A DNA stretch of 64,000 nucleotides from Verrucomicrobiia bacterium (GTDB lineage Bacteria > Verrucomicrobiota > Verrucomicrobiia > Verrucomicrobiales > DEV007): NCBI GenBank assembly GCA_030427505.1, contig JAUICH010000001.1:434001-498000 (forward strand). The letters are read 5' to 3'. The stretch's first letter is position 1, and each line of letters starts with the position of its first letter. Shown here one piece after another: positions 38,184 through 45,699 of the stretch. The position numbers were made by a program, and so were the translations under genes. The notes beneath the pieces are model-generated. The model saw nothing but the letters and a program-made list of their open reading frames with translations, was not told the origin of the DNA and searched no databases.

Positions 38184-38642
38184 ATGGCCGAATCCGATAC
38201 TCCCTCGTCCACTCCCGTCTCAGTGGAGCCGAACACGGCTGACCTCACGACTCTGGCTACTGGGGGGAAACGGGCTGAAATTCCCGAGACCCCGGAACAG
38301 GAACGGAATCGCAAAAAGAATGTCCGTATCTTCCAGGTGTTGCCACTGATTTTGTCGGCGCTTCTGGCGGGACTCGTGTTGTTTGGGGCGTTTTCGGCTG
38401 GAAATGGATCCGGCGGAGCAGGGGAATCCGTCTCAACCCTGGTTGCCGCCGGGCTGTGTATTTTCATCGTGGCGGCAGCCTTTTTGTTTGGAGGATTTGC
38501 CATCGCGCTTGTCTGGAAACGCACTTCTCCGGCTCTCTACGCGCTGCTAGGCGTAGGCATGTCCGCGGCACTGGTCGTCGCGCTGGTGTGCATTGTCTTT
38601 GCGGGCTGTCTCGTGCTGGTGGGGTCGGGATCTTTTCATTGA
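38184..38642 (+). CDS. Small membrane protein, first copy of a tandem family
   Basis: 152 residues. A polar N-terminus beginning MAESDTPSSTPVSVEPNTAD is followed by three hydrophobic segments (LPLILSALLAGLVLFGAF, LVAAGLCIFIVAAAFLFGGF and LLGVGMSAALVVALVCIVFA). The TPVSVEP stretch and the C-terminal block GGFAIALVWKR...ALYALLGVG...VFAGCLVL recur in the gene at 39105-39494 and in the frame-broken stretch 38801-39001, so the three descend from tandem duplication. No characterised family is recognised. The radical SAM enzyme gene follows the cluster on the same strand. Confidence 0.75.
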   Translation: MAESDTPSSTPVSVEPNTADLTTLATGGKRAEIPETPEQERNRKKNVRIFQVLPLILSALLAGLVLFGAFSAGNGSGGAGESVSTLVAAGLCIFIVAAAFLFGGFAIALVWKRTSPALYALLGVGMSAALVVALVCIVFAGCLVLVGSGSFH

Positions 38643-38800
38643 CCCTGTGCGGGTGCCTGACTGCGAAGGCGAGCTGAGACAGAGTGAGTTCAAAAAATCG
38701 AGAAAAACGATAAACGGAAAGTTTCTTTCGATTTTTGTGATGAGGAAGTTGGGTCCACGGTGGGAACTGCTGACCCCTTCATTTCCCGAGCCATGAATGA
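38643..38800. other. Spacer with AT-rich inverted repeat
   Basis: AAAAATCGA at 38693-38701 is repeated inverted as TCGATTTTT at 38728-38736. The 26-base gap and low GC make a strong hairpin unlikely, but the T-run at the end could act as a weak terminator of the first membrane-protein gene. No coding frame seen. Confidence 0.3.
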
Positions 38801-39001
38801 CATCGAAAGAAAACGCCGAAATCAAAGAATCAACAAGACACGGCAAGCACTCGTTCCGTTGGGTTTGCCTGCTGCTGGAGCCAAGTGTCCCCCTGGATGT
38901 TTGCGCTACTTGGATTGGCGCTTTCCGTTGGTGTGATGGTGTCCCTCATCGCTATCGCTTATGCCGGGTGCCTTTTGGTCTTGGAGCGGTTCACCTCTTG
39001 A
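38801..39001 (+). pseudogene. Relict of the tandem membrane-protein family
   Basis: A 67-codon frame without a usable start codon (it opens right after a TGA) reads VGFACCWSQVSPWMFALLGL, then SVGVMVSLIAIAYAGCLLVL, and stops at 38999-39001. It aligns with the C-terminal halves of the flanking paralogues (GGFAIALVWKRTSPALYALLG and GGFAIALVWRREHPFGYALMG, each followed by a helix ending FAGCL). The N-terminal half, including TPVSVEP, is missing. The best explanation is a third copy that lost its 5' half. Two ATG codons at 38793 and 38797 lead into other frames and do not restore it. Confidence 0.7.
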
Positions 39002-39104
39002 GATTCCTGACAAAACCATGCCGGTTACTTTCAAGGCTGTGGAAAACATTTCGGTCTGCCCGGCCCGGCTCTATTTTCCGCCGCACTCTCTCAGGCCCAG
39101 CACC

Positions 39105-39494
39105 ATGGAGAATGGCATCAAACACAGGACTCCGGTTTCCGTCGAACCCAGGGCTGCCCTGATTCCTGGGCGGAATGGAAATTCGCGAAAACAGAAGCGG
39201 CATATCGCGATCAACTGTGGTCTTTTCCTTTCTCTCCCGCTGTTCCTAACTTTCTTCATCAACTGGGGGCTTCAAACCAGTGGCCGGTTTCCAAGGGATA
39301 CTGTCCGCTTGGTGAGCGGTTGGAACTGGCTCCCTCTTTATGGTGGCTTTGCCATCGCTCTCGTTTGGCGGCGGGAGCATCCATTCGGCTATGCGCTGAT
39401 GGGTGTGACGCTCTACGCAATGATCGTGGTCGCGCTGGTGAGCCTGATATTCGCCGGGTGCCTGATGCTGGCCAGCTATCAGGCAAACCATTGA
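39105..39494 (+). CDS. Small membrane protein, third copy of the tandem family
   Basis: 129 residues from ATG 39105, selected because the protein then begins MENGIKHRTPVSVEPRAALI, matching the N-terminus of the first copy (TPVSVEP). An in-frame start at 38961 lies inside the relict copy. Three hydrophobic segments follow: LFLSLPLFLTFFINWGL, WLPLYGGFAIALVW and YALMGVTLYAMIVVALVSLIFAGCLML. Compared with the first copy, the loop between helices 1 and 2 is longer and the C-terminus ends ASYQANH. It lies 38 bases before the radical SAM gene and may be co-transcribed with it. Function unknown. Confidence 0.72.
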   Translation: MENGIKHRTPVSVEPRAALIPGRNGNSRKQKRHIAINCGLFLSLPLFLTFFINWGLQTSGRFPRDTVRLVSGWNWLPLYGGFAIALVWRREHPFGYALMGVTLYAMIVVALVSLIFAGCLMLASYQANH

Positions 39495-39532: not shown

Positions 39533-41092
39533 ATGCGGACAGAACCCGTTTCATTGAGTAATGACGTCTCGAAACAGACTGAAGATCGGTCCCATCCGTC
39601 CAAACTACTCAAGAGCACCCGTGGCCGGTGCCTGGTATGTGGTGGGGACGCGCCAGCGGAGATCTGGCTGGAAGAAGCGCTGGAGAACTCCGCCGCCGAT
39701 CGCGTGATGATCTCCCGCACCTGCGCGGAACACGGAAAGCAGACCAACTGCCTCAGCTCCGACGCCCGCTTTTTCTGGCTGAGCCACGGGCATCCGGAAA
39801 ACGCGGCGGCGGGAACACCCGCCGTGAGCCAGTTTGGACCTGAAACCGGTGGGGGTTGTTGCGGCTCCTTCCGCGGTTGCGAAGCCGGCGCGACCGTTTC
39901 ACCTCCCGCCGCCGAACCTGTCGAAGCCCGGCCCGCGTCGTCTAAGGGCCTTCCCGGTTCGCTGGGCCGCAATGCCCGGCTGCCGCGCGAGTCCGCTTTC
40001 GAAACTCTCTCCACCTGCCTGGCCCTCATTGAGATTGTGGATTCGTGTAACCTGCGCTGCCCGGCCTGCTACGCGGATTCACCGCACGGCGTGGGCAACA
40101 ACCTGAACTACGTGCCCCTGGAAACCCTCCAGGGGCGAATTCAGAGCGCTATCGACCGCAAAGGAGGGCTGGAGATTCTGCAATTCTCTGGCGGCGAACC
40201 GACCCTGCACCCCCAGTTTTTCGAACTGCTGGAATGGGCGCAGTGCCATGAGGGGATCGACTACGTTCTCATCAATACCAATGGTGTGCGCCTGGCCGGC
40301 GACGACGCTTTTCTGGAAGGCTTGCGCGCCGCGATGGAGTGGAAAAACCTCCAACTCTACCTTCAGTTTGACGGTGTGCAGGAGGCCGGACAAGCCACGC
40401 TTCGAGGCCTGGACCTCAGGAAGACCAAAGAACGGGCCATCGAACGCGCCGGTGACGTGGGCCTGCCTTTGACACTGGCCATGACCGTGACGCGCGAAAA
40501 CCTGGGCCATCTCTGGGACGCGGTCCAGTTCGGCCTGCGCTACGATCATGTGCGGGGTATTTGCTTTCAGCCGCTCTTTACGTCCGGGCGGCAGATCCTG
40601 GACCTGGCGGAGTGGCGGTCCGCCGCCACGGAGCGGTTGAACACGGCGGACATCATCGTTTCCGTGGTGGAGCAGAGCGAAGGCGGGCTGCGCTACGAAG
40701 ACTTCACGCCGCTTCCCTGCGGAGATCCTAACTGCGCCACCATCGGTTACCTGCTGAAGGTAAGCGGAGCCGTCCGTTCCATCAGCGATTTTGTGGATTT
40801 TTCCCAAGTACAGGAATTTCTACAGGACCGCGTCCGCTATGAATTGGAGGACCTGTCCCGCTGTGGCTGCGAGAGCGAACCGCTGGGCGAGTTGCTGCAC
40901 GAATTCGAAATGGACGAGAGCCACACCTTCCGCCTGTTGGTAAAACCCTTCATGGATGCCTTTACCTGGGACGAGGACCGGATCGACCGCTGCTGCACCC
41001 ACGTTATCCGTCCGGATGGAAAGCTGGATTCCTTTTGCCGCTACTACGCTCTGGGCGGGCCGGCGGCGCATCCCGCCGGAGCAGAGGCATGA
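39533..41092 (+). CDS. Radical SAM enzyme, tetraether-lipid-synthase (Tes)-like
   Basis: 519 residues. The [4Fe-4S] SAM cluster motif is C172-x3-C176-x2-C179 in VDSCNLRCPACYADSP, with FSGGEPTLHP (residues 218-227) as the SAM-binding GGE motif. An N-terminal CxxC (C33, C36) with C64-AEHG matches a zinc- or cluster-binding element. The C-terminal RCCTHVIRPDGKLDSFCRYY echoes the C-x-H-x4-DG-x3-FC-x-Y/N ending of the archaeal Tes (MJ0619) family, which joins lipid chains to make tetraethers. Residues 90-145 are a low-complexity Gly/Pro/Ala insert. It overlaps the Lgt-like gene by four bases (ATGA), which fits a lipid-related role. Bacterial members are largely uncharacterised, so the substrate is unknown. 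Confidence 0.82.
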   Translation: MRTEPVSLSNDVSKQTEDRSHPSKLLKSTRGRCLVCGGDAPAEIWLEEALENSAADRVMISRTCAEHGKQTNCLSSDARFFWLSHGHPENAAAGTPAVSQFGPETGGGCCGSFRGCEAGATVSPPAAEPVEARPASSKGLPGSLGRNARLPRESAFETLSTCLALIEIVDSCNLRCPACYADSPHGVGNNLNYVPLETLQGRIQSAIDRKGGLEILQFSGGEPTLHPQFFELLEWAQCHEGIDYVLINTNGVRLAGDDAFLEGLRAAMEWKNLQLYLQFDGVQEAGQATLRGLDLRKTKERAIERAGDVGLPLTLAMTVTRENLGHLWDAVQFGLRYDHVRGICFQPLFTSGRQILDLAEWRSAATERLNTADIIVSVVEQSEGGLRYEDFTPLPCGDPNCATIGYLLKVSGAVRSISDFVDFSQVQEFLQDRVRYELEDLSRCGCESEPLGELLHEFEMDESHTFRLLVKPFMDAFTWDEDRIDRCCTHVIRPDGKLDSFCRYYALGGPAAHPAGAEA

Positions 41093-41814
41093 CAACCCCT
41101 TCTCACGCGCTGCCGGGAGGCGCCTACCGGATCGTCATGATCGCGGTGCTGGGACTGTCCTTTCTAGCCTGGGCCTTTGCGGCGCGGCGGGACCGGCGCC
41201 TTCTGGCCATCTATCTGGGAGGGGTGCTGGGCGGCTTCACCGGGGCAAAGCTGGGATATATCTTCGCGGAAATCTGGCAGGTTTGGGGCCAGCCCTACGT
41301 GATTCAAGCCCTGCTGACGGGCAAGACCATCACCGGCGCCTTGTTGGGTGGCTACGCGGGGATAGAAATTGCCAAGCGGGCCGTGAACTATGCCAAACCC
41401 ACGGGAGACTGGTTCGCGTTGGTGGTGCCGTTGGGCGTCGTGGCGGGCCGGATAGGGTGCATCTGTCACGGGTGTTGTTTGGGGGCGCCTCTGTCCGGAG
41501 CAGGTTGGTGGTGGACCGCGGCCGATACCGCGGGGGTGGCCCGCTGGCCGGCAGCCGCGGTGGAGCTGGGGTTCAACGCGGCAGTGGTTCTCTTGTTAGG
41601 AGTCTTGCGGTGGCGGCGGGTCTTGCCCGGTCAGCTATTTCACGTGTATCTCATCTGCTATGGTATTTTTCGCTTCGCCCATGAATTTATCAGGGACACT
41701 CCGCGAATTTGGGGACCGTTTACAGGGTACCATCTCCTTTCCCTGGGACTGATCGTCTTAGGAGTCTGGCGTTTTTGGGCCCGGAGCCGTTCAGCCAGCC
41801 AAACACCGGAGTGA
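41089..41814 (+). CDS. Prolipoprotein diacylglyceryl transferase (Lgt)-like protein
   Basis: 241 residues from the ATG overlapping the radical SAM gene's stop. Six or seven membrane helices with VVAGRIGCICHGCCLGAPL, the Arg/Gly-rich signature of Lgt-family proteins (GRxGCxxxGCC form). HVYLICYGIFRFAHEFIRDT is the C-terminal Lgt block with the conserved Arg/Glu. True Lgt transfers diacylglycerol from phosphatidylglycerol to the lipobox Cys. This shorter, Cys-rich form may be a second Lgt-like protein with a different acceptor or lipid substrate. Coupling to a Tes-like radical SAM enzyme suggests membrane-lipid or lipoprotein modification. A terminator follows at 41841-41867. Confidence 0.82.
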   Translation: MTTPSHALPGGAYRIVMIAVLGLSFLAWAFAARRDRRLLAIYLGGVLGGFTGAKLGYIFAEIWQVWGQPYVIQALLTGKTITGALLGGYAGIEIAKRAVNYAKPTGDWFALVVPLGVVAGRIGCICHGCCLGAPLSGAGWWWTAADTAGVARWPAAAVELGFNAAVVLLLGVLRWRRVLPGQLFHVYLICYGIFRFAHEFIRDTPRIWGPFTGYHLLSLGLIVLGVWRFWARSRSASQTPE

Positions 41815-41867: not shown

Positions 41868-42074
41868 GAAACTTTGTTATTGCAAGAAGGGGGGCATTTC
41901 CGCTAGCAATTCGCCCTCTCGCGTCCATAACGGAAATGATGGGTTGTAAACTGCGTGCTTGCAGGTTAGGGATAGTTAGCGTGTTAGGATGTCGAGCCTG
42001 CTTATTATCAAGGCTGAGCATGAATCTGTTCGCCTTTTCCCCTTCCGCCAATCGTAAACTTTCTTCACTGAGTG

Positions 42075-42683
42075 ATGAAGTGTCCTCATTGTTCCATCTT
42101 GGTCCGCGGCGTGCCGCAGGAGGCGGTGTTGCTTGGGCGAGACGCGGAATCAAACTGGGTCGCGGTCATTCAGCGTTGCGGGGCTTGTGGCCGGGTGATC
42201 ATAGAAATTTGTGAAGGAGAGCGGAATGTGCCGGAGCCCCCTTCAGAAGGGGATTTACCGGTCAGCTTCAAACGCCGCCAACTGGTTCAGCCGCTGGCGT
42301 TTCCACACGATCTGGATCGCTGGAGTTTGCCTCTGGAACTGGACCGGGAGTTTCGCGAAGCCTGCCGGGTGCTGGCGGCCAGTCCGCGGGCGGCGGCGGC
42401 ACTCGGCCGCAACTGTCTGAGATCCATCTTGCGTTCTCAGGCTGGCGTTCGGCCAGGCACTCTAGGAGAAGAGATAGATTTCTTTCTTTCGATGGTCGAG
42501 GTACCTGTCCACCTCCGGAATGCAGTAGAGCGACTGCGCCATTTTGGAAACTACCAGGAACATCCGCAGAAATGCGAACACCCGGATTCGCTCTACGAAG
42601 TGTCTCAAGAGGAAGCCCAGCTAACGCTGCAAGTGGTGGAAATCCTGAGCCGTCACTATTTCGGCGAGCGTGAGACGCGCTGA
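42075..42683 (+). CDS. DUF4145-like protein with N-terminal zinc ribbon
   Basis: 202 residues from ATG 42075 (a GTG three bases earlier is also in frame). The first 40 residues hold MKCPHC and RCGACGRV, a four-Cys zinc ribbon. The body LPLELDREFREACRVLAASP, then RAAAALGRNCLRSILRSQ, closely follows the DUF4145 pattern (helical, with SPRAAAALxRRxLQ). DUF4145 appears in restriction-modification and defence contexts and as stand-alone proteins; its biochemical role is not established. The neighbours here (an Lgt-like gene upstream, convergent PEP-CTERM gene downstream) give no defence context, so no function is proposed. Confidence 0.8.
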   Translation: MKCPHCSILVRGVPQEAVLLGRDAESNWVAVIQRCGACGRVIIEICEGERNVPEPPSEGDLPVSFKRRQLVQPLAFPHDLDRWSLPLELDREFREACRVLAASPRAAAALGRNCLRSILRSQAGVRPGTLGEEIDFFLSMVEVPVHLRNAVERLRHFGNYQEHPQKCEHPDSLYEVSQEEAQLTLQVVEILSRHYFGERETR

Positions 42684-42719: not shown

Positions 42720-43415
42720 TTACTTTGAAGCTAAGGAAGCCACTCTCCTCCGGCGGCGCAGAAAGGCGAAACCGCCCGCCGAGAGCCCTAACAAGGCCAT
42801 CGTGCCAGGTTCCGGCACGGCTTCCGTCTGTAGATCGAAACCATCTCCGCCGGAAGCGTCTACATTGATGCCAGTTTCGCTGCCGGTGTACATCGAATCA
42901 TAAGCACCGTAAATGGCTTCAATGCTAGGATCGCCCAGATCGGGGATGTAGAATTCAGTGACGGAGGGGTCGATTGCTTCGGCGGTTGGGAAAAGCCAGG
43001 CTGGCGATGTCAGGAGAATCCACTCCGTGCCGCCTCCGATGGCCATATCGTTGAGACCCCAGATGAAGGCCCGCTCGCCTGCGGCGAAAACCGTGTTATT
43101 GCTGATGCTGGCGGAACCGCCGAAACTGTCGGCGAAGGGGCCCGTCGTCACATAGCTGACGCTGTTAAAGGTCGTCCAGTTGCTGGCCCACTGATCGATG
43201 TTTGAGCGAGTGGGGGTGAACGAACCCAGGGCATTAAACGCGCCCACGTAAAAGGTGTAGTTTCCGTCGAGTGGGTTGGCAAAGCTATCGACGCTGTCCG
43301 TGGGAGCGAATGAAGTGCCCCAGTCAATGGTATCGGCGGAAAGTTGAGCGGGCAGATACCAGGAGAAAACGACAGCGCTGAAGAGGGCCGCGAATAGTGT
43401 CTTGCTCTGGTTCAC
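42720..43415 (-). CDS. PEP-CTERM sorting-domain protein
   Basis: 231 residues from a GTG at 43415; the frame continues upstream, but that part overlaps the secretin gene and lacks a signal. The start VNQSKTLFAALFSAVVFSWY is a plausible signal peptide (cleavage near LSADTID). The mature part is Ser/Thr/Asn-rich and beta-prone. The C-terminus is AVPEPGTMALLGLSAGGFAF followed by LRRRRR: the VPEP motif, a hydrophobic helix and an Arg cluster, the PEP-CTERM signal recognised by exosortases. The protein should be anchored, cleaved and exported to the surface or extracellular matrix. No exosortase lies in the window. It is co-directional with and 34 bases after the secretin gene, so co-transcription is possible. 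Confidence 0.82.
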   Translation of the reverse strand: MNQSKTLFAALFSAVVFSWYLPAQLSADTIDWGTSFAPTDSVDSFANPLDGNYTFYVGAFNALGSFTPTRSNIDQWASNWTTFNSVSYVTTGPFADSFGGSASISNNTVFAAGERAFIWGLNDMAIGGGTEWILLTSPAWLFPTAEAIDPSVTEFYIPDLGDPSIEAIYGAYDSMYTGSETGINVDASGGDGFDLQTEAVPEPGTMALLGLSAGGFAFLRRRRRVASLASK

Positions 43416-43449
43416 GATGAAAGATGAGGTGATGGTTCTGTCAGGGTAG

Positions 43450-45699
43450 CTATTCTTCTTTTCTCCAGTGTTTGCCGACCATGCCTTTTTTGCGGACCTC
43501 AGCTTGCGGAGAAAGGTCGACCTCGGAGAAATCCAGGACATCGTCCAAAATGGTGCTGCGCCCGTGCTCGAGTTCGTTGGGGCTTGTTGGGGCGCGGCTA
43601 CCCGAAATGATGTGCGGTTGAATGAAAATGAGCAATTCTTCCTTGGAAATGCTCTTTTCCGTTCCGCCGAGGACCTTGCCCAGGACGGGAATCTTCCGCA
43701 CCACGGGAATTCCTGTCTCAGTTTTCTCCTCGCGTTCGGTAATGAGACCGCCCAGGACAATGGTGGAGCCGTGTTTCACGGTCACCGTGGTAAGCAATTC
43801 CTGCGTGCTGATGGTGGGAATCTCGTTTCCTGAAATGTTCTGACTGCCCACGATGTTGTCATTCAGTTGCGCGATCTTCAGGGTGACTTCATCGTCGGAA
43901 TTGATCAACGGCACGACTTCCAGTTTCAGCACCACGTCACGGTACTCGATGTTCGAAGTGATGGAGCCCGGATACTCCCCGGAAAGACTGCCGTCCAGCG
44001 TGGTGAGGGTGGAAATCGGTACCGCAATGCGTTGGCCGCTGGAGATGACGGCTTTTACATTGTTCTGTGCATACACGCTTGGGCGGGAAAGAATACGGAA
44101 GCGCGAGTCGCGCGCCAGCAGCCGCACCCAGGAATTCAAGGTGCCCATGTCTCCGTAGGCAAACTGGCCATACAAGGTAAGGCCGCGGAGGAGCGGGAAA
44201 TTTTCGAAGCTGTCCAGACCGCCGACATCCGTCAGAGGGCCGCCAGTGCTGTACGACCCGGCGCCGAGAATCTCATTGCCGTCGTCGAATTTGAAGGTTT
44301 CCAAGGTTTGCAGCGCATTCAGGCCATACTCCAGATCGTCCCCCAGGGTGAGCTGGCCGATGACGGTGGAGATGTAAACCTGCTTCGGCTCGATATCGAT
44401 TTCATCGATGAGTTTTTCCACGATCTCCAACTGTTCGGGAGAGCCGGAAGCAATCAAGCTGTTGTTCCGCGAGTCGGCAATCAGGAGAGTATTCCCAATA
44501 ACATAAGACTGCGGGCCGCCGTCCTCCTCCGGTTCTGAGAGGCGATCTGGGGCAGTGATTTGTCCGCCCGAGCCGCTACTGCCTGAGTACCCGGTGCTAC
44601 CTGTGGAAGCGCGGCCACTCTGCCGGAAGTCTGGCTGTCCCCCGGGCTGGGCGCCTTCCATGAGATCGTCGGGGGATTCGATATCCGTGTCCCGGGCTAA
44701 AGCATTGTAAGCCACTGGCAGATAGTCCAACACGGAAACGTAGCGGAGCTTCCGCTTCAGGAAGTTGATGCCGTCGCTCGGTTGATCCAGCGTTTCCACC
44801 AGGCCGCGGATGTAGGTGATGTCCACGGGCCGGGCGATTACCAGGACGCTGTTGGTCCGGCGGTAGGGAATGATGAGCACTTTGGGACCCGGAGCGGCAG
44901 TCCCAGCAGCGGAAAGATTGGCGGCAGGTCCAGACTGACCTCCCGCGCCAGGGTTGGAACCAGAAGCCGCCACGATGGGAGCGATGCCGGTTTGCGCCTC
45001 GTAAACGGAGCTGATGATTTCCGCTACCTTGTCCGCGTCCGCCCGCTGAAGCTTCACAAACTCATTCGACACCTGCGCGGGCGGCACATCGACATGAGTT
45101 TTGAGATCGATCAGGCTGCGAATGACTGAGGTGTTCTCCGTGATGACCACGCCTGAGGCGCTGCTCAGCGGAGTGATGGCGCCGTAGGGGTTCAGAGACA
45201 CCACCTGGGAAAAGGTCCGCACCGCTTCCTCGGGGGAAATGTGCTCTAGTTCCATCACATAGTTCACCACTGCGTCGGTGTCCGGCAGATCGTTCGGAGA
45301 AGCCACCACAGGCAGACCCTGGCTGCGGGGGCTTTTTCCAGAGGCGTAGTTCACCAGTTTCAACGTGTTCTCGTCCACGGGAATGAAGGCGTAGCCGTTT
45401 AGGAGCAGCACGCTTTCGATGAAACTGATCGCCTGGCCACGGGTCAGCATTTGCGTCGAGGTGACCGTAATGTTCGCGCCGGTCAGGTTGGCGTCCTGAA
45501 TGATACGTTTTCCTGTAAGTGCCTCGTAATAAGGGAGTATGGCGGATACCGGGGCGTTGGGAAACTCCACCCGCACGGAGGGCGCCTCCGGATTGGGAAC
45601 GCCAGGTGCGGGATCTTGGGCCCACAGCGGTACCGAGGCGGCCAGAAGAACCAGGGCCGCCGTCCACCAGCAAACGAAGCGTTTTTTGTGAGCGATCAA
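43450..45699 (-). CDS. Secretin (GspD/PilQ superfamily)
   Basis: 749 residues from a TTG at 45699, chosen because it begins a signal sequence (IAHKKRFVCWWTAALVLLAA, cleavage near LWAQD). The upstream frame reaches 45846 but runs into the divergent dinB gene. Several N-domains (about residues 30-400) with a Gly/Ser-rich linker and SEPEEDGGPQ insert precede the secretin core. The core contains STQELLTTVTVKHGSTIVLG, GLITEREEKT and VVRKIPVLGKVLGG, the VPxLGxIPxLGxLF-type signature of the outer-membrane ring. It forms a large gated channel for a type II secretion or type IV pilus system. No other secretion genes are in the window; the PEP-CTERM gene follows at 34 bases. Confidence 0.9.
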   Translation of the reverse strand: MIAHKKRFVCWWTAALVLLAASVPLWAQDPAPGVPNPEAPSVRVEFPNAPVSAILPYYEALTGKRIIQDANLTGANITVTSTQMLTRGQAISFIESVLLLNGYAFIPVDENTLKLVNYASGKSPRSQGLPVVASPNDLPDTDAVVNYVMELEHISPEEAVRTFSQVVSLNPYGAITPLSSASGVVITENTSVIRSLIDLKTHVDVPPAQVSNEFVKLQRADADKVAEIISSVYEAQTGIAPIVAASGSNPGAGGQSGPAANLSAAGTAAPGPKVLIIPYRRTNSVLVIARPVDITYIRGLVETLDQPSDGINFLKRKLRYVSVLDYLPVAYNALARDTDIESPDDLMEGAQPGGQPDFRQSGRASTGSTGYSGSSGSGGQITAPDRLSEPEEDGGPQSYVIGNTLLIADSRNNSLIASGSPEQLEIVEKLIDEIDIEPKQVYISTVIGQLTLGDDLEYGLNALQTLETFKFDDGNEILGAGSYSTGGPLTDVGGLDSFENFPLLRGLTLYGQFAYGDMGTLNSWVRLLARDSRFRILSRPSVYAQNNVKAVISSGQRIAVPISTLTTLDGSLSGEYPGSITSNIEYRDVVLKLEVVPLINSDDEVTLKIAQLNDNIVGSQNISGNEIPTISTQELLTTVTVKHGSTIVLGGLITEREEKTETGIPVVRKIPVLGKVLGGTEKSISKEELLIFIQPHIISGSRAPTSPNELEHGRSTILDDVLDFSEVDLSPQAEVRKKGMVGKHWRKEE

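Follow-up and report, generated by a model that had tools for sequence, protein, structure and literature searches.

The window analysed here is a stretch of 64,000 nucleotides from a 6.4-Mb, 96% complete genome of a Verrucomicrobiia bacterium (G000:C6:434001-498000), and the subject is a short run of genes within it. These encode a radical S-adenosylmethionine (SAM) protein resembling archaeal tetraether synthase (Tes), a second and divergent member of the Lgt family (here termed Lgt2) and, directly upstream, a set of small membrane proteins (Table 1). A first-pass annotation, made from the sequence alone, had described a Tes-like radical SAM gene overlapping an Lgt-family gene at this place, and the coordinates, the ATGA overlap and the Pfam assignments were all confirmed. 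The ATG of the Lgt2 gene at 41089 sits within the stop codon of the radical SAM gene, giving a 4-base overlap, and the open reading frame (ORF) listing offers TTG 41035 as an alternative in-frame start further upstream. The third component, which the first-pass annotation missed, spans 38184-39494 and consists of two intact paralogues with a broken copy between them. In total, the genome holds 16 radical SAM matches and two LGT matches.

Table 1. Genes and gene remnants of the candidate module, with positions in the window.
Feature	Position	Strand	Description	Tail cysteine codon	Basis
Small membrane protein A (probable substrate)	38184..38642	+	152 residues, ~3 transmembrane segments, end ...IVFAGC-LVLVGSGSFH	38607-38609	ORF and transmembrane scan
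Broken middle small-protein copy	38794..39001 (about)	+	Tail ...AIAYAGC-LLVLERFTS		Homology to third copy (G000:C6:472864-472980)
Small membrane protein C	39105..39494	+	129 residues from ATG 39105, end ...LIFAGC-LMLASYQANH	39459-39461	
Tes/TrsS-like radical SAM protein	39533-41092	+	519 residues		ORF, Pfam and structure/profile match
Lgt2, divergent second Lgt-family member	41089-41814	+	241 residues, 7 or 8 helices		Motif GRIGCICHGCCLG

Relation of the radical SAM protein to tetraether synthase

The radical SAM protein matches the Pfam Radical_SAM model at 56.6 bits (cut-off 29.5), and an N-terminal HMPTM zinc ribbon falls close to its own cut-off (25.9 of 27 bits). Its layout comprises a rubredoxin-like CxxC...CxxH at the N-terminus, a second cluster region, the CxxxCxxC core and a C-terminal CCTH...DG...FC block. 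The motifs pointed out at first pass are real and conserved over 67 aligned sequences: C33xxC36...C64-A-E-H67-G, C172xxxC176xxC179 and C487-C488-T-H490...D495-G496...F501-C502, with C172, C176, C179 and C488 invariant. C33, C36, C64 and H67 are the counterparts of the ligands of the rubredoxin site in Tes, which follow the pattern CxxC...CxxH (PMC9433317). The third cysteine of the N-terminal cluster is variable, and the family has constant cysteines of its own in the same alignment (Cys162, C396, C401, C444 and C446), the first of which may replace the His ligand.

Both profile and structure point to Tes (also GDGT-MAS; MJ0619, PDB 7tol, NF045702) as the nearest protein of known structure, with the same domain order down to the C-terminal CC.H...FC. 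A family profile searched against the PDB gave one full-length match, to 7tol (E 7e-77), followed by SkfB at 4e-12. Similarly, the AlphaFold model (mean predicted local distance difference test [pLDDT] 82.6, predicted template modelling score [pTM] 0.85) found 7tol best in Foldseek at 1.9e-31, with SkfB next at 6e-11. The first-pass annotation had left room for a peptide-modifying SPASM group to fit better than Tes. This was not the case, since SkfB lies far behind 7tol, and scores with SPASM/Twitch models are much lower (45.2 bits for mycofactocin maturase and 38.4 for StsB, against 195.2 for TrsS).

Tes activates unreactive lipid C-H bonds and couples lipid tails via a carbon-sulfur intermediate held on a cluster; its Met439 is a labile ligand of the C-terminal cluster, and some 1,000 archaeal homologues share both Met439 and Tyr459 (PMC9433317). 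In the window protein these residues are Lys471 and Val491, and the same replacements occur in 62/67 and 63/67 of the aligned sequences, respectively. By sequence, then, the first-pass relation to Tes holds as a resemblance and fails as an identity: the protein is Tes-like and not Tes, because it falls below the curated Tes equivalog cut-off (146.3 of 450 bits with NF045702; relatives score 140-324) and because Met439 and Tyr459 are replaced. A true Tes was rejected on these two grounds. The corresponding idea, a true tetraether synthase with which Verrucomicrobiota would make membrane-spanning tetraethers, has the full-length resemblance in its favor but is very improbable, given the same replacements and a Tes score lower than that for TrsS. 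The protein differs from Tes further in being bacterial and in lying beside Lgt2 and small proteins with a cysteine tail. With Lys and Val at the two positions and constant cysteines of its own, its C-terminal cluster is probably ligated differently from that of Tes, and its chemistry may differ from chain coupling.

TrsS (NF045646) is the top-scoring curated model for the window protein (195.2 of 490 bits) and for all ten relatives scanned; scores over the whole set run from 194 to 353 bits and thus stay below the cut-off of 490. We know of no function for TrsS. The genetic context also sets the two apart, as the neighbor here is Lgt2 and not a methyltransferase of the DVU_1556 type. That methyltransferase was found only at L195 and L196, where two more remote relatives, carried by plasmids of Mycolicibacterium and Halorarius, have no Lgt beside them. 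A further context of the family is seen at L170 (G345), where 5.5 kb hold two Tes/TrsS-like radical SAM genes, beside SDR and ketosynthase-like genes and with no Lgt. Two minor points concern the window gene itself. Residues ~94-134 form a segment longer than in relatives, and an in-frame repeat insertion was considered for it and rejected, because neither the window nor the genome holds a second copy of this DNA. Finally, the gene contains no in-frame stop able to encode selenocysteine.

A second Lgt and its co-inheritance with the radical SAM gene

In the reaction catalysed by Lgt, phosphatidylglycerol donates a diacylglyceryl group to the thiol of a cysteine located where a hydrophobic segment ends on the periplasmic side; Arg143 and Arg239 belong to the donor site (PMC4728403, PMC13251419). 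Lgt2 matches the Pfam LGT model at 77.8 bits (cut-off 24.9) and stays under the curated Lgt equivalog cut-offs (45.7 of 118.9 bits with TIGR00544 and 74.4 of 334 with NF000778). Its AlphaFold model (pLDDT 93) has E. coli Lgt (PF01790; PDB 5azb) as the sole Foldseek match at E < 0.001, with a probability of 1.00 and a TM-score of 0.63. Compared with standard Lgts, Tyr26, Arg143, Arg239, Glu243 and Arg246 are retained, as Y13, R121, R195, E199 and R202 of the window protein. Differences are found at His103, which is Thr, Val or Met, at Asn146, Glu151 and Leu152, all of which are Cys, and in the periplasmic head segment, which has about 20 residues versus 41-85 in Lgt. As a result, the set essential in E. 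coli (Y26, H103, R143, N146, G154 and R239; PMC13251419) is incomplete in the window protein, which keeps Y13, R121, G132 and R195 and has T82 for H103 and C124 for N146.

The cysteines belong to the sequence GRIGCICHGCC at residues 120-130, where C124 is invariant in 65 sequences and C129 and C130 are nearly so. The Cys-rich GRxGCxxxGCC signature that the first-pass annotation singled out is therefore present, but it is not unusual: it occurs on sole Lgts of the phylum, and the N146C/E151C combination has already been published (PMC13251419). For the same reasons it was rejected as the mark of a new activity. Several other families of the phylum possess one lgt only (e.g., in G246, G268 and G145; 191-210 bits), and this gene encodes the motif GCxLNGCCYG. 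Such sole Cys-type Lgts (GRxGCxLNGCCYG, with Tyr for His103 and a head of ~18 residues) were seen at L109, L111-L119, L139 and L143-L148, in G246, G268, G145, G047, G151, G020 and other genomes. Lipidation in these families must work without Asn146 and His103. The short head of Lgt2 was likewise considered as an adaptation to the tail cysteine described below and dropped as specific evidence, because the head is just as short in sole GCC-type Lgts.

On its residues, Lgt2 therefore fits best as a divergent paralogue within the Cys-type branch of Lgts, with an intact donor site, and as a putative diacylglyceryl transferase. An Asn146-to-Cys change and a weak second Lgt of that type in M. smegmatis have been described (PMC13251419). 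These second or variant Lgts (M. smegmatis MSMEG_5408 and the Leptospira Lgt) share the substitution with Lgt2 but, as far as found, no radical SAM partner or Cys-tail membrane proteins have been reported for them.

Lgt2 is an addition to the regular enzyme. A genome scan with LGT recovered a separate, standard lgt on the same contig (227.9 bits, GRIANFINGELYG) as well as Lgt2 (77.6 bits, GRIGCICHGCCLG). The first-pass alternative of a single lgt standing next to the radical SAM gene by chance thus finds no support, either here or in the joint inheritance of the pair. A standard lgt is kept besides Lgt2 in 6/6 carriers of the radical SAM gene scanned in the same order, while 2/2 non-carriers scanned have a single lgt.

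When 84,980 species genomes were searched using the radical SAM protein alone, 76 loci were recovered, almost all carrying the label Verrucomicrobiota or Planctomycetota. At 60 of these 76 loci, which include truncated contigs, Lgt2 follows within 1.3 kb in the same orientation. Co-occurrence, a check proposed at first pass, was counted by whole-genome searches in 190 genomes of the order: Lgt2 is present in 50/50 radical SAM carriers versus 1/140 non-carriers (Fisher 2e-45, ignoring phylogeny). The sole exception, G437, lacks the radical SAM gene and has a broken Lgt2 split into two frames (G437:C29:39743-40098), which suggests that the parts of the module are lost together. Moreover, the two genes are 333 kb apart in G320 and on different contigs in G278, G429, G457, G472, G499 and G531, so that their co-inheritance is not explained by adjacency alone. 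Distance matrices for the two proteins over 61 loci are correlated (Mantel r 0.84, 0/2000 permutations), a value that has no neutral-pair control and reflects shared ancestry too.

On these data the radical SAM protein and Lgt2 almost certainly form one functional module. Chance neighbors or a spurious gene call would have to produce both the co-occurrence and a gene order conserved across three phyla; no point in support of this explanation was found, and its probability is negligible. A cupredoxin gene adjoins Lgt2 at L047, L069, L165 and L166, also in genomes in which Lgt2 no longer lies beside the radical SAM gene.

Small membrane proteins with a cysteine tail

In all three small-protein copies of the window, [F/Y]AGC-L comes after a hydrophobic segment, with another 9 or 10 residues to the end. 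Protein C, for which a longer listed ORF starts at 38961, is a paralogue of protein A with 39% identity. In the broken middle copy, the N-terminal part and the tail are in different frames and the first transmembrane segments are gone. The pattern [FY]AGC[LF] has 20 matches in the genome, and a transmembrane end near the stop accompanies it only in the three tandem copies (other tail sequences fall outside the pattern).

Across the fetched loci, small transmembrane ORFs were collected with a strict filter (two to four transmembrane segments and the Cys motif within the last 26 residues). In 71 of 76 cases they lie on the same strand, up to 1.5 kb upstream of or between the radical SAM and Lgt2 genes, at a density of about 6 per 10 kb there versus about 0.1 elsewhere and with none on the opposite strand. 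When the Cys requirement was lifted, a cysteine was still present in the last 26 residues of 94/100 small transmembrane ORFs near the pair, compared with 18/39 elsewhere. Of the 68 loci with enough upstream sequence, at least 54 possess a small protein of this kind, and 21 loci have tandem copies.

The tail cysteine is preceded by F or L at -3, G or A at -2 and G, A, S, T or V at -1, and is followed by L at +1 and a median of 9 residues. Lysine and arginine together average 2.8 before the last transmembrane segment and 0.4 after the cysteine; under the positive-inside rule, this bias predicts that the proteins are N-in/C-out with the tail cysteine in the periplasm. For comparison, an ordinary lipobox reads [LVI][ASTVI][GAS]C at the periplasmic end of a positively flanked hydrophobic segment; the small proteins show the preferences just listed at -3, -2 and -1 and an N-in charge bias, with the motif at the C-terminal instead of the N-terminal segment. 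Outside the tail the sequences have strongly diverged, with zinc ribbons at the N-terminus of some and proline-rich heads on others. Among ten small proteins scanned, including protein C, no convincing Pfam family was found, only zinc ribbons on some N-terminal parts. Tandem copies together with strong divergence outside the tail fit substrates, which often diverge in this way.

The trio is kept in deep relatives whose radical SAM proteins are only 29-35% identical, both in other classes of the phylum (L159-L161 and L163) and on a plasmid (L194), and the tail cysteine is conserved across distant lineages. For example, the order at L159, L160 and L161 (G050, G160 and G310) is radical SAM, ICMT-type methyltransferase, Lgt and small protein, with small-protein ends of IGSCFALFSFSQ, IGSCFALVSYN or LGACFGMANGCR. 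For the L160 methyltransferase the best match is protein-S-isoprenylcysteine O-methyltransferase, at 73 bits against a cut-off of 160. At L163 the order is Lgt, radical SAM and a small protein ending GLGVCFNILKDL, while on the Persicobacter (Bacteroidota) plasmid at L194 an Lgt-like gene overlaps the radical SAM gene and is followed by a 59-residue protein ending GTGICGSLLS. It is very probable that the small proteins belong to one functional module with the radical SAM protein and Lgt2.

What that membership means can be read in more than one way. Conceivably, the radical SAM protein modifies residues of the small proteins while Lgt2 lipidates or anchors them, in a membrane-bound system akin to ribosomally synthesized and post-translationally modified peptides. 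The small proteins are indeed precursor-like, being small, multi-copy and variable around a constant motif, and radical SAM enzymes with auxiliary clusters frequently act on peptides. However, the radical SAM protein is no SPASM maturase by profile or fold, the conserved cysteine is predicted to be periplasmic and so away from the cytoplasmic enzyme, and no conserved residue is seen beyond the tail as an obvious target, all of which makes such a system rather improbable.

A thiol or metal relay is another candidate, in which the Lgt fold would have been reused for redox or metal handling, with the radical SAM protein as partner, and the cysteines of Lgt2 would join the tail cysteine in a disulfide or a metal site. 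The conservation of C124, C129 and C130, that of the tail cysteine and the cupredoxin gene beside Lgt2 would suit it. Nevertheless, cupredoxin is present at four loci only, L163 and L194 keep just the first of the Lgt2 cysteines, and a relay would have no need to retain Arg143 and Arg239. Moreover, the three cysteines also occur in sole, presumably working Lgts, and a structural disulfide has been proposed for the Leptospira Lgt (PMC13251419). A relay of this kind is likewise improbable.

A proposed lipidation module and its weighing

Because a Tes-related radical SAM protein is co-inherited with Lgt2 and, mostly, with Cys-tail proteins, the data suggest a bacterial system, so far undescribed, that attaches lipids to small membrane proteins or alters lipids they carry. 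In the proposed mechanism, small proteins with two to four transmembrane segments would present a lipobox-like cysteine near the C-terminus, at the periplasmic end of the last segment. Lgt2 would transfer a diacylglyceryl-type group from a phospholipid to this tail cysteine, and the radical SAM protein, on the cytoplasmic side, would alter a hydrocarbon chain of the lipid involved, most plausibly on the donor lipid, by C-C coupling, C-S insertion or other C-H activation. We put the probability of this three-part reading as a whole at roughly 0.4. The tail cysteine is the probable target of the module; that it serves specifically as the lipid acceptor is a tentative proposal, somewhat short of an even chance. 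The chances that the radical SAM protein acts on lipid are slightly better than even, and its action on protein is possible but doubtful. The acceptor and transferase roles would follow from anatomy and conservation, and the chain-changing step is the weakest of the three.

Several observations weigh against this mechanism. A tail cysteine is missing from 6/100 of the small transmembrane ORFs beside the pair, the filter detects no small protein in 14 of the 68 loci with enough upstream sequence (partly owing to limits of ORF calling), and the transmembrane and topology calls rest on hydropathy and charge counts only. To our knowledge, no C-terminal lipobox has been described. No direct evidence ties the radical SAM protein to lipid rather than protein. 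Two small proteins at L162 (G357) have their GTC or GVC where the first transmembrane segment ends, and not the last. Finally, His103 and Asn146, both essential in E. coli Lgt (PMC13251419, PMC4728403), are both replaced in Lgt2. This last objection is not fatal, because in other genomes the only Lgt carries Tyr and Cys at these positions. The two L162 proteins lie between the radical SAM and Lgt genes (L162:7642-8230), and their GxC is as in an ordinary lipobox.

A rival reading is a pathway concerned with lipid only. Here the radical SAM protein and Lgt2 would jointly build an unusual membrane lipid, for instance a thioether lipid or one whose chains are coupled or bridged by sulfur, and the small proteins would serve as accessory subunits or anchors instead of substrates. 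The nearest fold and profile belong to Tes, a coupler of lipid tails (PMC9433317), Lgt2 keeps its phospholipid-donor residues, and in some genomes no small protein was found beside the pair. Such a pathway would, however, leave unexplained both the tandem copies and the membrane-end cysteine, the only feature conserved among the small proteins. The ICMT-like gene of the deep relatives also fits a lipidated cysteine better, although substrates of the ICMT family are many. A lipid-only role is therefore considered unlikely.

Returning to the proposed lipidation of the tail cysteine, the parts belong to known superfamilies, and there is a real chance that together they perform a new kind of protein lipidation. 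Its most specific form, in which a dedicated Lgt paralogue lipidates a C-terminal, tail-anchored lipobox of small polytopic proteins with a lipid chain remodelled by a Tes-like radical SAM enzyme, is in itself unlikely. The open-licence papers searched contained no account of a module that combines a radical SAM protein with Lgt. The first-pass interpretation, that the pair points to radical lipid chemistry or lipoprotein modification, is thus partly supported.

Bacterial Tes homologues, including those of Planctomycetota, have been counted before; they number in the hundreds and are often read as possible makers of membrane-spanning lipids, with no function demonstrated for them (PMC8941075, PMC11868695). 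One large branch of these proteins now gains a defined genetic context, namely a dedicated Lgt paralogue and small cysteine-tail proteins. This context points to the lipidation of proteins, or to a lipid supplied for that purpose, rather than to synthesis of branched glycerol dialkyl glycerol tetraethers (brGDGTs), and caution is warranted so that Tes matches in Planctomycetota and Verrucomicrobiota are not read as a tetraether signal. Should the tail cysteine prove to be lipidated, it would constitute a C-terminal counterpart to the N-terminal lipobox. The module is directly testable because cultured carriers exist, including strains of Haloferula, Roseibacillus and Luteolibacter.

Two further genes of the window deserve mention. 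A DUF4145 protein is encoded directly downstream of Lgt2 (42072-42683, forward strand), and its association with the pair is not conserved among relatives. Beyond it, on the reverse strand (42720-43760), lies a gene for a protein with a PEP-CTERM-like C-terminus (VPEPGTMALLGL...RRRR), and the source organism therefore probably also uses exosortase-type C-terminal sorting.

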